Origin: Sulfurovum sp.
GTDB lineage: Bacteria > Campylobacterota > Campylobacteria > Campylobacterales > Sulfurovaceae
Direction: 5' to 3'
NCBI GenBank assembly: GCA_027082955.1
Contig: JALWTA010000045.1
Coordinates: forward strand, 1 to 64,000
DNA length: 64,000 bases
Below the pieces are notes generated by a model. That model was not told the DNA's origin. It worked only from the letters and a program-made list of their open reading frames with translations, and did not search any database. Of the stretch, positions 4,536 through 55,451 are shown piece after piece. The translations under genes were made by a program, and so were the position numbers. The first letter of the stretch is position 1. The number at the start of each line of letters is the position of its first letter.

Positions 4536-5567
<1,032 letters not shown>

Positions 5568-5591
5568 TCTTTTTGATAATTTGCACTCATC

Positions 5592-5650
5592 TTTTCAGGA
5601 TGGGTGCAGTCAGCTACTATTTCGTAGCCTCCTTTACCCAAACCCAAAAA
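5592..5650 (+). ncRNA. candidate structured RNA, copy 1 (anti-Shine-Dalgarno hairpin)
   Basis: The DNA folds as nested stems. The outer arms are TTTTCAGG (5592-5599) and CCCAAAAA (5643-5650), with two mismatches. The middle arms are TGGGT (5601-5605) and ACCCA (5636-5640). The apical hairpin is GCTAC (5613-5617) and GTAGC (5624-5628). CCTCCTTT (5628-5635), the exact complement of the strong ribosome binding site AAAGGAGG, lies almost wholly in the unpaired 3' internal strand. Copy 2 lies 122 bases downstream with the same architecture. It may be a small RNA or part of the ilvC 3' untranslated region. No family is recognised. Confidence 0.45.
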
Positions 5651-5713
5651 TCTGAGCACAATTTACCAAAAATCTTCAATTAGTTTACATTCTTTTTGCG
5701 ATTTTACTGCATC

Positions 5714-5770
5714 TTTGAGGGATGGGGTCGGTCAGCTACTGTGTGTAGCCTCCTCTCCCAAACCCTCAAA
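5714..5770 (+). ncRNA. candidate structured RNA, copy 2
   Basis: This is the same fold as the copy at 5592. The outer stem TTTGAGGG (5714-5721) with CCCTCAAA (5763-5770) is perfect. The middle stem is TGGGG (5723-5727) with TCCCA (5756-5760), where the T-A pair of copy 1 becomes G-U. The apical stem GCTAC (5735-5739) with GTAGC (5745-5749) is invariant while its loop differs. The unpaired strand reads CTCCTC. Similarity continues about 40 bases past each hairpin (AAATCTTCA near the end). Changes fall mostly in loops or keep pairing. Confidence 0.45.
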
Positions 5771-5868
5771 TCTACAGCAAACTCACAAAAAATCTTCAGT
5801 TTGTTCATCTTACTATTTTCCCCTTTTCCTTTTTAACTTTTAACTTTTTCGGGTAATGGTAATTTGGC

Positions 5869-5874
5869 TATAAT
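5869..5874 (+). promoter_or_regulatory. -10 promoter box
   Basis: TATAAT lies 27 bases before the deacetylase-like gene, preceded by TTTGGC. A short inverted repeat, CCACT (5880-5884) with AGTGG (5891-5895), lies between it and the start codon and could be an operator or a leader hairpin. Confidence 0.5.
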
Positions 5875-5901
5875 TGCACCACTATACCAAAGTGGAAAAT
5901 C

Positions 5902-6963
5902 ATGGCACCTGCTTCACGTAAAAAAAGACCATCTTCACCCCAAAGTAAAAAAAGTTCCGAACGTAAACGCAGTGGGCAGAAAAAAAGTTCTGTCAAGCGT
6001 AAAAAAAAGAAGAAAAACAACCGTTCAAAACAGTCGTTGAAAATAGTACTGCTTCTTTTTGCTGCCGTGTTGCTTGTCGGCATAGGCTACTGTCTTGGTA
6101 TATGCTGGCATTCCAAAACAGAGCATAAACATGTAGTACACAAGCAGCACATTCAAAAACATGCCAAGCAGACACCGGTGAAAAAATCTGTACACAAAAC
6201 AGAACACAAACAGGCTGTCAAAAAAGAAGTGCAACGGTATCCGGCACCGTCAGTGCATGAGACAAGGCAAAAGGTCTACCCCAAAGTAAGGCTTGCATAC
6301 AGAGGGGAAAAGCCAAAACTGGCGATCATCATCGATGATGTACATACCAAAGCCCAGCTTGATGAGATCAATGCGTTTGGTATCCCTGTTACCCCCTCCA
6401 TATTCCCTCCCTATAGCATGGCACCGCATACGGAGAAGCTTGCAACCCATGCGGTACACTATATGATTCACCTTCCGCTTGAGTCGGGCAATGCCAAATT
6501 CAACACCCAAAGCAAGACATTGATGACAACGGCAAGCCGCCAAGCCATAGAGGCGCGTGTACGGGAGTTGCGCAGGCTTTTCCCCAGAGCACACTACATC
6601 AACAACCACACCGGCTCGGTCTTTACACGAAACTACCATGCGATGTATCTGCTGTATGAGGCGATGAAAAAGGAGGGGTTTACCTTTATCGACAGCCGTA
6701 CGATCGCAGATAGCAAGGTGGCGAAGATCGCTCATGCGTTTGGAGATGCCTATGTGGCACGTGATACCTTTATAGACAATGTGCAGTCTGTGCCTTACAT
6801 TCACAATCAGCTGAAAAAAGCGGTTGCCTTGGCAAAACGAAACGGGTATGCCATCGCCATCGGGCATCCCCATAAAGCGACTATGGAAGCGCTGCGAACA
6901 GCTAAGCCGCTTTTAAAGGGGGTTGAGGCAGTCTATATTGATAGTATATTCAGGGAGGAATAG
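5902..6963 (+). CDS. divergent polysaccharide deacetylase family protein (YibQ-like)
   Basis: The protein has 353 residues. The first 45 are extremely Lys/Arg/Ser-rich (a cytosolic tail), followed by one membrane anchor (about 48-70, LKIVLLLFAAVLLVGIGYCLG). A His/Lys-rich linker with repeated KTEHK and KHV units leads into the catalytic-type domain. That domain shows the divergent polysaccharide deacetylase signatures LAIIIDDV, MIHLPLE, NNHTGS, FIDSRT and IGHP. It is probably a periplasmic wall or polysaccharide hydrolase of unknown substrate. It abuts the permease gene without a gap. Confidence 0.8.
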   Translation: MAPASRKKRPSSPQSKKSSERKRSGQKKSSVKRKKKKKNNRSKQSLKIVLLLFAAVLLVGIGYCLGICWHSKTEHKHVVHKQHIQKHAKQTPVKKSVHKTEHKQAVKKEVQRYPAPSVHETRQKVYPKVRLAYRGEKPKLAIIIDDVHTKAQLDEINAFGIPVTPSIFPPYSMAPHTEKLATHAVHYMIHLPLESGNAKFNTQSKTLMTTASRQAIEARVRELRRLFPRAHYINNHTGSVFTRNYHAMYLLYEAMKKEGFTFIDSRTIADSKVAKIAHAFGDAYVARDTFIDNVQSVPYIHNQLKKAVALAKRNGYAIAIGHPHKATMEALRTAKPLLKGVEAVYIDSIFREE

Positions 6964-8298: not shown

Positions 8299-8301
8299 AA
8301 A

Positions 8302-8570
8302 TGGGCACATCTAAAAACCCCAGATGCTCATAACATTGTCAGCTTTGTTCTAGGCAAGGTACACTTTTGAAGTCCTAGCCGTAGCTAAGTCGAAAAAGTG
8401 TAACGCTGCATAGGGCAAAGCTGGCATTGCCCAAGAGGGTGGGCTTTGCAGACGCGATCTTTCACAAGATGCTTCCTTCATCTTAGCTTTGGCTAGGACT
8501 TGAAAGCCTCTTGCAAAATCTCACATCTGCAAAACCCATTATGAGCGTCTGGGGTTTTTAGAGGTGCCCA
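8302..8570. mobile_element. MITE-like palindromic element
   Basis: This 269-base non-coding element is bounded by 32-base terminal inverted repeats (8302-8333 and 8539-8570) that match at 30 of 32 positions and begin TGGGCAC. An inner inverted pair lies at 8370-8389 and 8482-8501 (18 of 20), and ACACTTTT at 8362-8369 pairs with AAAAGTGT at 8394-8401. No transposase is present. It fills nearly the whole gap between the permease and dprA; its right end lies 68 bases before the dprA start. No clear target duplication is seen beyond a flanking AA. Confidence 0.6.
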
Positions 8571-54707: not shown

Positions 54708-55451
54708 ATGAAACTAGGTTTCTTAGTTGACCTGAACCTGTGTATGGGTTGTAAGGGTTGTGAAGTGGCTTGTAAAGTCGAAAACGAAGTGCCGCTCGGC
54801 TCTTGGCGTCTACGCGTTAAATATATTGATATCGGGACATTCCCCGAAACGTCAAGATCGTTCACACCGCTTCGCTGTAACCACTGTGAAAGCGCACCGT
54901 GTGAGCGTATTTGTCCTGTATCGGCATTGCATTATCTGGAAAACGGTATTGTCAATGTTGACAGCTCAAGATGTATCGGTTGTGCTGGATGTATGATGGC
55001 ATGTCCATATGGTGCTATCTATATGGATCCTGAGACCAATACGGCTGACAAGTGTACCTACTGTGCGCACCGTATCGAAAGCGGTATGATGCCTGCGTGT
55101 GTGGTTATCTGTCCTGTTCAGGCGAACATCTTCGGTGACCTCGATGATGATAACAGTCATATCTCACGCTATATTATGGAACATCAGGGTGCTGTACAGG
55201 TACGTAAACCTGAAAAGAACACAACACCAAAACACTTCTATGTCGGCGGTGGTAACCAGACACTCAATCCGCTTGCACAGCAGCGTCTTGAAGGGTATAA
55301 CCTCTTTAACAACATCACACATCTCAAGCAGATAGGTGATCCGCATGAGAGCGTGATTGGAAGGTTCCTTGAGCCGTTTGAAAGTGAAGAGAAACTCGAT
55401 AACAGAAGCTTTATCGATTTTGACAACGATAATTACAAAGGAGGTCACTAA
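54708..55451 (+). CDS. molybdoenzyme FeS subunit, four [4Fe-4S] clusters (PsrB/DmsB type)
   Basis: The 247-residue subunit has four clusters' worth of Cys: CMGCKGCEVAC, CNHCESAPCERICP, CIGCAGCMMACP, and CTYCAHRI...CVVICP. It would wire electrons between the NrfD-type membrane subunit and the catalytic subunit. It has no signal peptide, so it is exported by riding with the Tat substrate at 56411. It has a strong AAGGAGG site, and overlaps the NrfD gene by one base. Confidence 0.92.
   Translation: MKLGFLVDLNLCMGCKGCEVACKVENEVPLGSWRLRVKYIDIGTFPETSRSFTPLRCNHCESAPCERICPVSALHYLENGIVNVDSSRCIGCAGCMMACPYGAIYMDPETNTADKCTYCAHRIESGMMPACVVICPVQANIFGDLDDDNSHISRYIMEHQGAVQVRKPEKNTTPKHFYVGGGNQTLNPLAQQRLEGYNLFNNITHLKQIGDPHESVIGRFLEPFESEEKLDNRSFIDFDNDNYKGGH

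Follow-up and report, generated by a model that had tools for sequence, protein, structure and literature searches.

What are the two structured repeats that stand in tandem behind ilvC in this Sulfurovum genome, and do they act as free RNAs or as part of the message that precedes them? The original prediction, made from the letters of the window (the whole 64,000-nucleotide stretch of DNA analysed), read them as sibling trans-acting RNAs that expose an anti-Shine-Dalgarno strand, or else as a 3′ UTR-derived regulator. The features at the locus, with R2 and R3 denoting covariance models described below, are as follows.

4539–5567, + strand: ilvC, ketol-acid reductoisomerase (open reading frame; NCBIfam TIGR00465/NF004017)
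5565–5567, + strand: ilvC stop codon TAA, inside copy 1 at element positions 3–5
5563–5682, + strand: ERIC-like element copy 1, predicted rod hairpin (MFE −28.6 kcal/mol; models R2 and R3)
5609–5632, + strand: core of copy 1, GUCA / GCUAC stem / loop / GUAGC / CUCC (sequence, column conservation and pairing probabilities)
5685–5802, + strand: ERIC-like element copy 2, predicted rod hairpin (MFE −35.1 kcal/mol; models R2 and R3)
5731–5753, + strand: core of copy 2, GUCA-GCUAC-loop-GUAGC-CUCC (sequence, conservation and pairing probabilities)
5869–5874, + strand: TATAAT, possible −10 box of the next gene, seen by eye only and absent from the promoter-scan output
5902–6963, + strand: next gene, divergent polysaccharide deacetylase (open reading frame; Pfam PF04748)

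Results

Two predicted rods at the end of ilvC

Both copies are imperfect palindromes of ~119 nt (118–120 nt) between ilvC and the polysaccharide deacetylase gene, and each is predicted to form a single long rod interrupted by several internal loops. They repeat with a tandem period of 120–122 bases, in line with the spacing of 122 claimed at the outset, and both contain the three-tier stem (outer, middle and GCTAC/GTAGC apical) that the original prediction described, down to an outer stem whose pairing is complete only in copy 2, a middle-tier T-A that becomes G-U, and apical loops that differ. The extent given there, 5592–5770, was too short: the elements occupy 5563–5682 and 5685–5802, ~30 nt more on each side, and the shorter interval took in only the upper part of each rod. 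Folded as a whole, the repeat stretch reached −83.6 kcal/mol compared to −59.0 kcal/mol in shuffles (z −5.1), and the single copies with flanks gave z values of −5.1 (copy 1) and −4.1 (copy 2); no shuffle was equally stable in either comparison. The core of the window copies reads GTCAGCTAC...GTAGCCTCC, and pairing probabilities place a 3 × 3 internal loop, UCA/CUC, within the core of copy 1.

Rfam returned no match above gathering score in the window and, locally, only chance-level matches at E ≤ 10; a tRNA scan gave no match. Within 5400–6000, a promoter scan found no sigma-70-like promoter on the + strand, and no intrinsic terminator (a G+C-rich stem followed directly by a T run) was found; the TATAAT at 5869–5874 lies 3′ of both elements.

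Distribution among genomes

A search for the exact core, GTCAGCTAC-N4-8-GTAGCCTCC, was positive in 12 of 61 genomes of the genus, compared to none for the reversed control pattern. Named contigs with the core belong mostly to Sulfurovum, with two from Sulfurimonas and a few from MAGs named only at higher rank. A covariance model built from 14 exact-core sequences (R1) matched 67 of 78 genomes of the genus, 109 of 175 genomes of the family (9 of 11 genera) and 50 of 399 genomes of the order. In the present genome, R1 returned 12 copies at E < 0.01 and one weak copy, with an opposite-strand echo excluded; opposite-strand matches are the same palindrome read from its other side and not extra copies. 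The covariance models together put the number of copies in this genome at 12–14.

A broader model (R2), trained on 75 sequences that include both window copies, matched 93 of 397 genomes of the phylum, spread over 24 of 68 sampled genera. Its scores for copy 1 (111.7 bits, E = 2.7e-23) and copy 2 (109.9 bits, E = 7.4e-23) are those of training members and are high by construction. Matches in Campylobacter- and Helicobacter-like genomes were weak (~42–53 bits); these labels, like Arcobacter-like, are putative assignments from family grouping. A phage origin was considered and set aside, with only 3 pattern matches in a viral collection.

Variant forms were also seen. At the ends of porB-like and murF-like genes, several Sulfurovum-type genomes hold a subclass with ~20 extra upper-arm bases around CTTCGTT. 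In Campylobacter-like genomes, near-identical copies stand near a convergent gene for 332 aa, at ~50 nt from its 3′ end and with no recognised same-strand stop codon, a placement unlike that in Sulfurovum. A 119-nt form with the ends ATTCGTCTCTT...ACTAGAATT is seen repeatedly in Helicobacter-like genomes; it mostly lacks a recognised stop codon upstream and could be a still mobile, fixed-end variant.

Covariation of the rod

The original prediction had proposed a covariance search as its own check and had staked itself on finding homologues with compensatory changes, and such homologues were found. Among the 14 exact-core sequences, 19 pairs showed two-sided changes, in 68 cells; shuffles gave 24 such cells, and a slid partner strand 13 at most. 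With 75 sequences, two-sided compensatory changes were present in 37 of 40 base pairs (631 cells, compared to 213 in shuffles and at most 163 with a slid partner strand). In the apical stem, NNUAC/GUANN, pairs one and two covary, and GUCA, UAC, GUA and CUCC are nearly fixed. By column conservation, the unpaired loop bases UCA/CUC are conserved as strongly as any paired bases.

G-U pairs are scarce, at 80 of 2582 paired cells (3.1%). RNAs usually have more, and the shortfall is compatible with some correction of the palindrome arms at the DNA level. The scarcity hints at template-switch correction, which was considered as the chief cause of the covariation and rejected: at low divergence the changes are one-armed (20 broken pairs, 5 G-U pairs and 1 double change) and double changes appear later, which is the pattern expected of selection for pairing, and template-switch correction is thus unlikely to be the whole cause.

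In the alignments, unpaired spots recur along the rod every ~10–11 nt (near positions 6, 18, 28, 38 and 48). With this spacing they may share one face of the helix, and that face could bind a protein.

The CUCC strand is mostly paired

The idea of two trans-acting sRNAs that pair with Shine-Dalgarno sequences through CCUCC starts from a genuine match. As predicted, CCTCCTTT is present in copy 1, at 5628–5635, and is the exact complement of AAAGGAGG, which precedes the ATG at 55451 and is a standard Shine-Dalgarno sequence; CUCC, moreover, is nearly invariant. The claim that all of CCTCCTTT except its first base is unpaired proved wrong: its unpaired probabilities are.02,.98,.97, 1.0,.09,.10,.99 and.06, leaving only CUC and one U unpaired in copy 1, and in the corresponding CCUCCUCU of copy 2 the unpaired bases are CU and, two bases on, UC. 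An exposed C/U-rich anti-Shine-Dalgarno stretch is therefore absent from both copies, in which at most 3 adjacent bases are unpaired and most of CCUCC is paired, and the lack of a detectable + strand promoter in 5400–6000 also speaks against free sRNAs. Because conservation is equally strong in the opposing GUCA strand, the bases that a long anti-Shine-Dalgarno sequence would need after CUCC vary, and an identical CUCC occurs in E. coli ERICs and after many unrelated genes, a structural or protein-binding loop explains the conservation of CUCC better than an anti-Shine-Dalgarno role, and we regard the pair of trans-acting sRNAs as very improbable. Of the original interpretation, the part that described a 3′ UTR-derived regulator agrees with sense-strand 3′-end structures under compensatory evolution; the part that described sibling anti-Shine-Dalgarno RNAs is not borne out.

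Copies sit at gene ends in one orientation

Among 138 first-in-array copies, a count that includes many orthologues and only model-detectable copies, 118 carry a stop codon of the same strand by the 5′ edge (between −30 and +25 relative to the element start) and 6 have an opposite-strand stop codon at the other end; as a control for the 118, random positions gave this placement in 3.4% of cases. The stop codon falls at exactly the ilvC-type place in 53 of the first-in-array copies. Some Campylobacter- and Helicobacter-like matches lie away from any recognised stop codon.

The genes 5′ of the copies are unrelated and mostly housekeeping. They comprise ilvC, rplS, fusA, typA, tsf, guaA, purB, oorC and a murF-like gene; porB, gyrB, nrdB, an mfd/recG-like helicase gene, mnmE, metH, fabH and hemC; and cytochrome c genes, thiG, a succinyl-CoA-ligase-like gene, dxs, carA, nadC and a fabI-like gene. 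A riboswitch was rejected because these neighbours have no common pathway. The same loci (ilvC, guaA, rplS and fusA) carry copies across genera and families, and in a tree the copies cluster by gene, with 18 label changes compared to 34.9 in shuffles (minimum 30). Element ends vary by locus and fit the gene end, as at purB (AAATAGGCGGA/TCCGCCTATTT) and ilvC (AACTAATT/AATTAGTT). At some loci, purB among them (AAATAGGCGGA with TCCGCCTATTT), the final codons and the stop codon are themselves base-paired with the outer arm.

Copies directly at stop codons on the same strand would also suit a specialised terminator or 3′-end protector that defines where the ilvC transcript ends, without ribosome coupling, and T-rich runs do follow several copies, notably in Arcobacter-like genomes. 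Such a device is at odds with the absence of a terminator-like site in 5400–6000, with the A-U-rich foot of the rod, and with the tandem arrangement, which would be redundant for termination; we consider it quite unlikely.

Relationship to ERIC

By sequence comparison, the core of the elements is the centre of ERIC. An ERIC query sequence was checked against E. coli genomes, which it matched at up to 96% and more, in a median of 6 places per genome, and the published 127-nt ERIC consensus (PMC2759123) also matches. A further covariance model, R3, was built from 37 Arcobacter/Campylobacter/Sulfurimonas-type copies only. Searched with filters off against five regions with known ERICs from E. coli, Klebsiella and Vibrio, R3 matched nothing except the known ERICs, 5 of 5, at full model length and on the same strand, with E-values of 2.3e-7, 7.3e-5, 7.8e-5, 2.6e-4 and 0.0095; the window copies, which are outside its training set, gave E-values of 7.7e-7 (copy 2) and 3.8e-5 (copy 1), all E-values of the covariance search tool being rough. 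R2 matched four of the same five ERICs, at E 0.02–0.07. One further E. coli region, taken as an ERIC flank, proved to contain secretion-system effector genes and was excluded. These R3 matches to known ERICs and to the window copies point to an ERIC-like family that extends beyond the reported host range. Enterobacterial ERICs share the strand of the upstream stop codon and start at most 6 nt from it at E. coli ybhI and cusC and at Klebsiella potI; at a fourth locus, pgk-fbaA, the ERIC has the other orientation.

ERIC, also termed IRU or RU-1, is a single long imperfect hairpin of ~119–127 nt in Enterobacteriaceae and Vibrionaceae, and the likeness extends to details. At 118–120 nt per copy, the elements are close to the ERIC length of ~127 bp (shorter in Vibrio); their predicted folds are one long hairpin; the window copies contain the ERIC core AGTCAC(N)TAC...GTA(N)GCTCCT; ERIC has the shoulders CTGCGTTGG...CCGCCTTG in common with Arcobacter-like copies; and, like the ERICs, which are multi-copy, intergenic and located in transcribed regions, the 12–14 copies of this genome follow genes. 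In Yersinia, ERICs that overlap or adjoin stop codons reportedly have one orientation, according to a 2005 paper, and the 118 same-strand copies compared to 6 opposite ones follow that rule. Unlike ERIC, these elements occur in another phylum, are kept at the same loci over genera and are often tandem; they lack fixed terminal inverted repeats with 5′-TA-3′ ends (TATAC...GTATA in ERIC), their arms instead fitting each gene end, and for want of these fixed ends we call them ERIC-like. Assignment of the repeats to ERIC/IRU-type elements, as an ERIC-like family, is well supported by these sequence and model comparisons, and we favour a common origin with ERIC over convergence on a shared factor.

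The literature searched reports ERIC from Enterobacteriaceae and Vibrionaceae, with V. cholerae and Y. pestis as examples. It held no description of Campylobacterota ERIC elements, most subscription papers lying beyond the search, and a large branch of ERIC repeats in this phylum has apparently gone undescribed so far. A Helicobacter paper inferred ERICs from PCR bands, and ERIC primer sites are absent from two Arcobacter genomes (PMC3566208); diverged relatives in Arcobacteraceae-like genomes, assigned by family grouping, may bear on ERIC-PCR in Arcobacter.

Other repeat families resemble the elements less closely. REP/BIME and REPIN sequences are likewise dispersed palindromes, and PMC3733652 links REP palindromes to mRNA stabilisation; REP units, compared here by description, measure 20–40 bp, far below the length of the rods. 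Correia/NEMIS elements are transcribed palindromes of ~100–160 bp that are cleaved by RNase III (PMC10969869), with 24-bp terminal repeats and confined to Neisseria (PMC2229807); compared here by description, they share at most a possible mode of action with the elements studied here. Integron attC sites were rejected by eye because the apex of these elements, and not their ends, is conserved.

Discussion

ERIC elements have been used in strain typing for decades, and their function has been argued from a few Yersinia loci. The present elements add a second phylum, the same gene ends and near-total base-pair covariation, which would be evolutionary evidence that the fold has a function. In Yersinia, a 3′-end ERIC is reported to lower the upstream message, with an RNase E site whose exposure depends on ribosomes and orientation (PMC2229807, PMC10969869). 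The arrangement behind ilvC is the same, which suggests translation-coupled control of ilvC message stability. Given elements with a covarying predicted fold, a fixed position and strand at stop codons, and a relationship to ERIC, we favour, with some confidence, a cis-acting, translation-coupled 3′-end hairpin that sets the stability of the upstream mRNA.

Under this model, the ilvC message would carry both elements at its 3′ end. Folded into a long rod, this RNA would have the ilvC stop codon in its base and, at its tip, the conserved hairpin GUCA-NNUAC...GUANN-CUCC with its UCA/CUC internal loop. A ribosome at the stop codon would keep the 5′ foot of the rod open, and its departure would let the rod close; most probably, cutting or trimming of the ilvC 3′ end would depend on which of these two states the rod is in, so that message stability would track translation as reported for the Yersinia 3′-end ERICs. 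Unlike in ERIC hosts, RNase E was not found in this host: a search of the assembly, which is 95.6% complete, found RNase Y and no RNase E/G, so the nuclease probably differs from that in Yersinia. RNase Y, RNase III and 3′ exonucleases are candidates, and RNase E would be an unlikely one. A Campylobacterota lineage apparently without RNase E would also provide a setting for testing the ERIC mechanism. More generally, the elements probably tune the lifetime of housekeeping messages rather than act as free regulatory RNAs.

Could the repeats instead be selfish? ERIC is regarded as a MITE that has terminal repeats and duplicates its target (PMC2229807); since reviews count ERICs among mobile elements, transposition may account for some of the spread. 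A miniature mobile element of ERIC type without host function, whose insertion is tolerated after stop codons and whose palindrome is maintained by transposition or template-switch arm correction, would fit the multiple and tandem copies in this genome and the G-U share of only 3.1%. It is harder to reconcile with retention at ilvC, guaA, rplS and fusA across genera and families and the gene-wise clusters in the tree, with compensation that looks stepwise and not simultaneous, with unpaired UCA/CUC bases conserved like paired ones, with ends that vary between loci, and with the strand bias of 118 to 6. We consider a purely selfish element rather unlikely and retain the cis-acting hairpin as the preferred reading.

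A bolder extension of the cis-acting model, which we offer only tentatively, is that ERIC-type palindromes are more than an enterobacterial mobile repeat and form an ancient class of 3′-end RNA structures common to Campylobacterota and Gammaproteobacteria. Recognised through the UCA/CUC loop by a conserved cellular factor, they would link translation termination in housekeeping genes to the decay of the message.

Elsewhere in the window, an imperfect inverted repeat of ~250 bp (GGGCACATCTAAAAACCCCAGATGCTCATAA ... TTATGAGCGTCTGGGGTTTTTAGAGGTGCCC) at 8300–8563 lies between a symporter-like gene and a dprA-like gene. It contains an R3 match on the − strand (23 bits, E = 0.013) and is possibly a further mobile or ERIC-related element.
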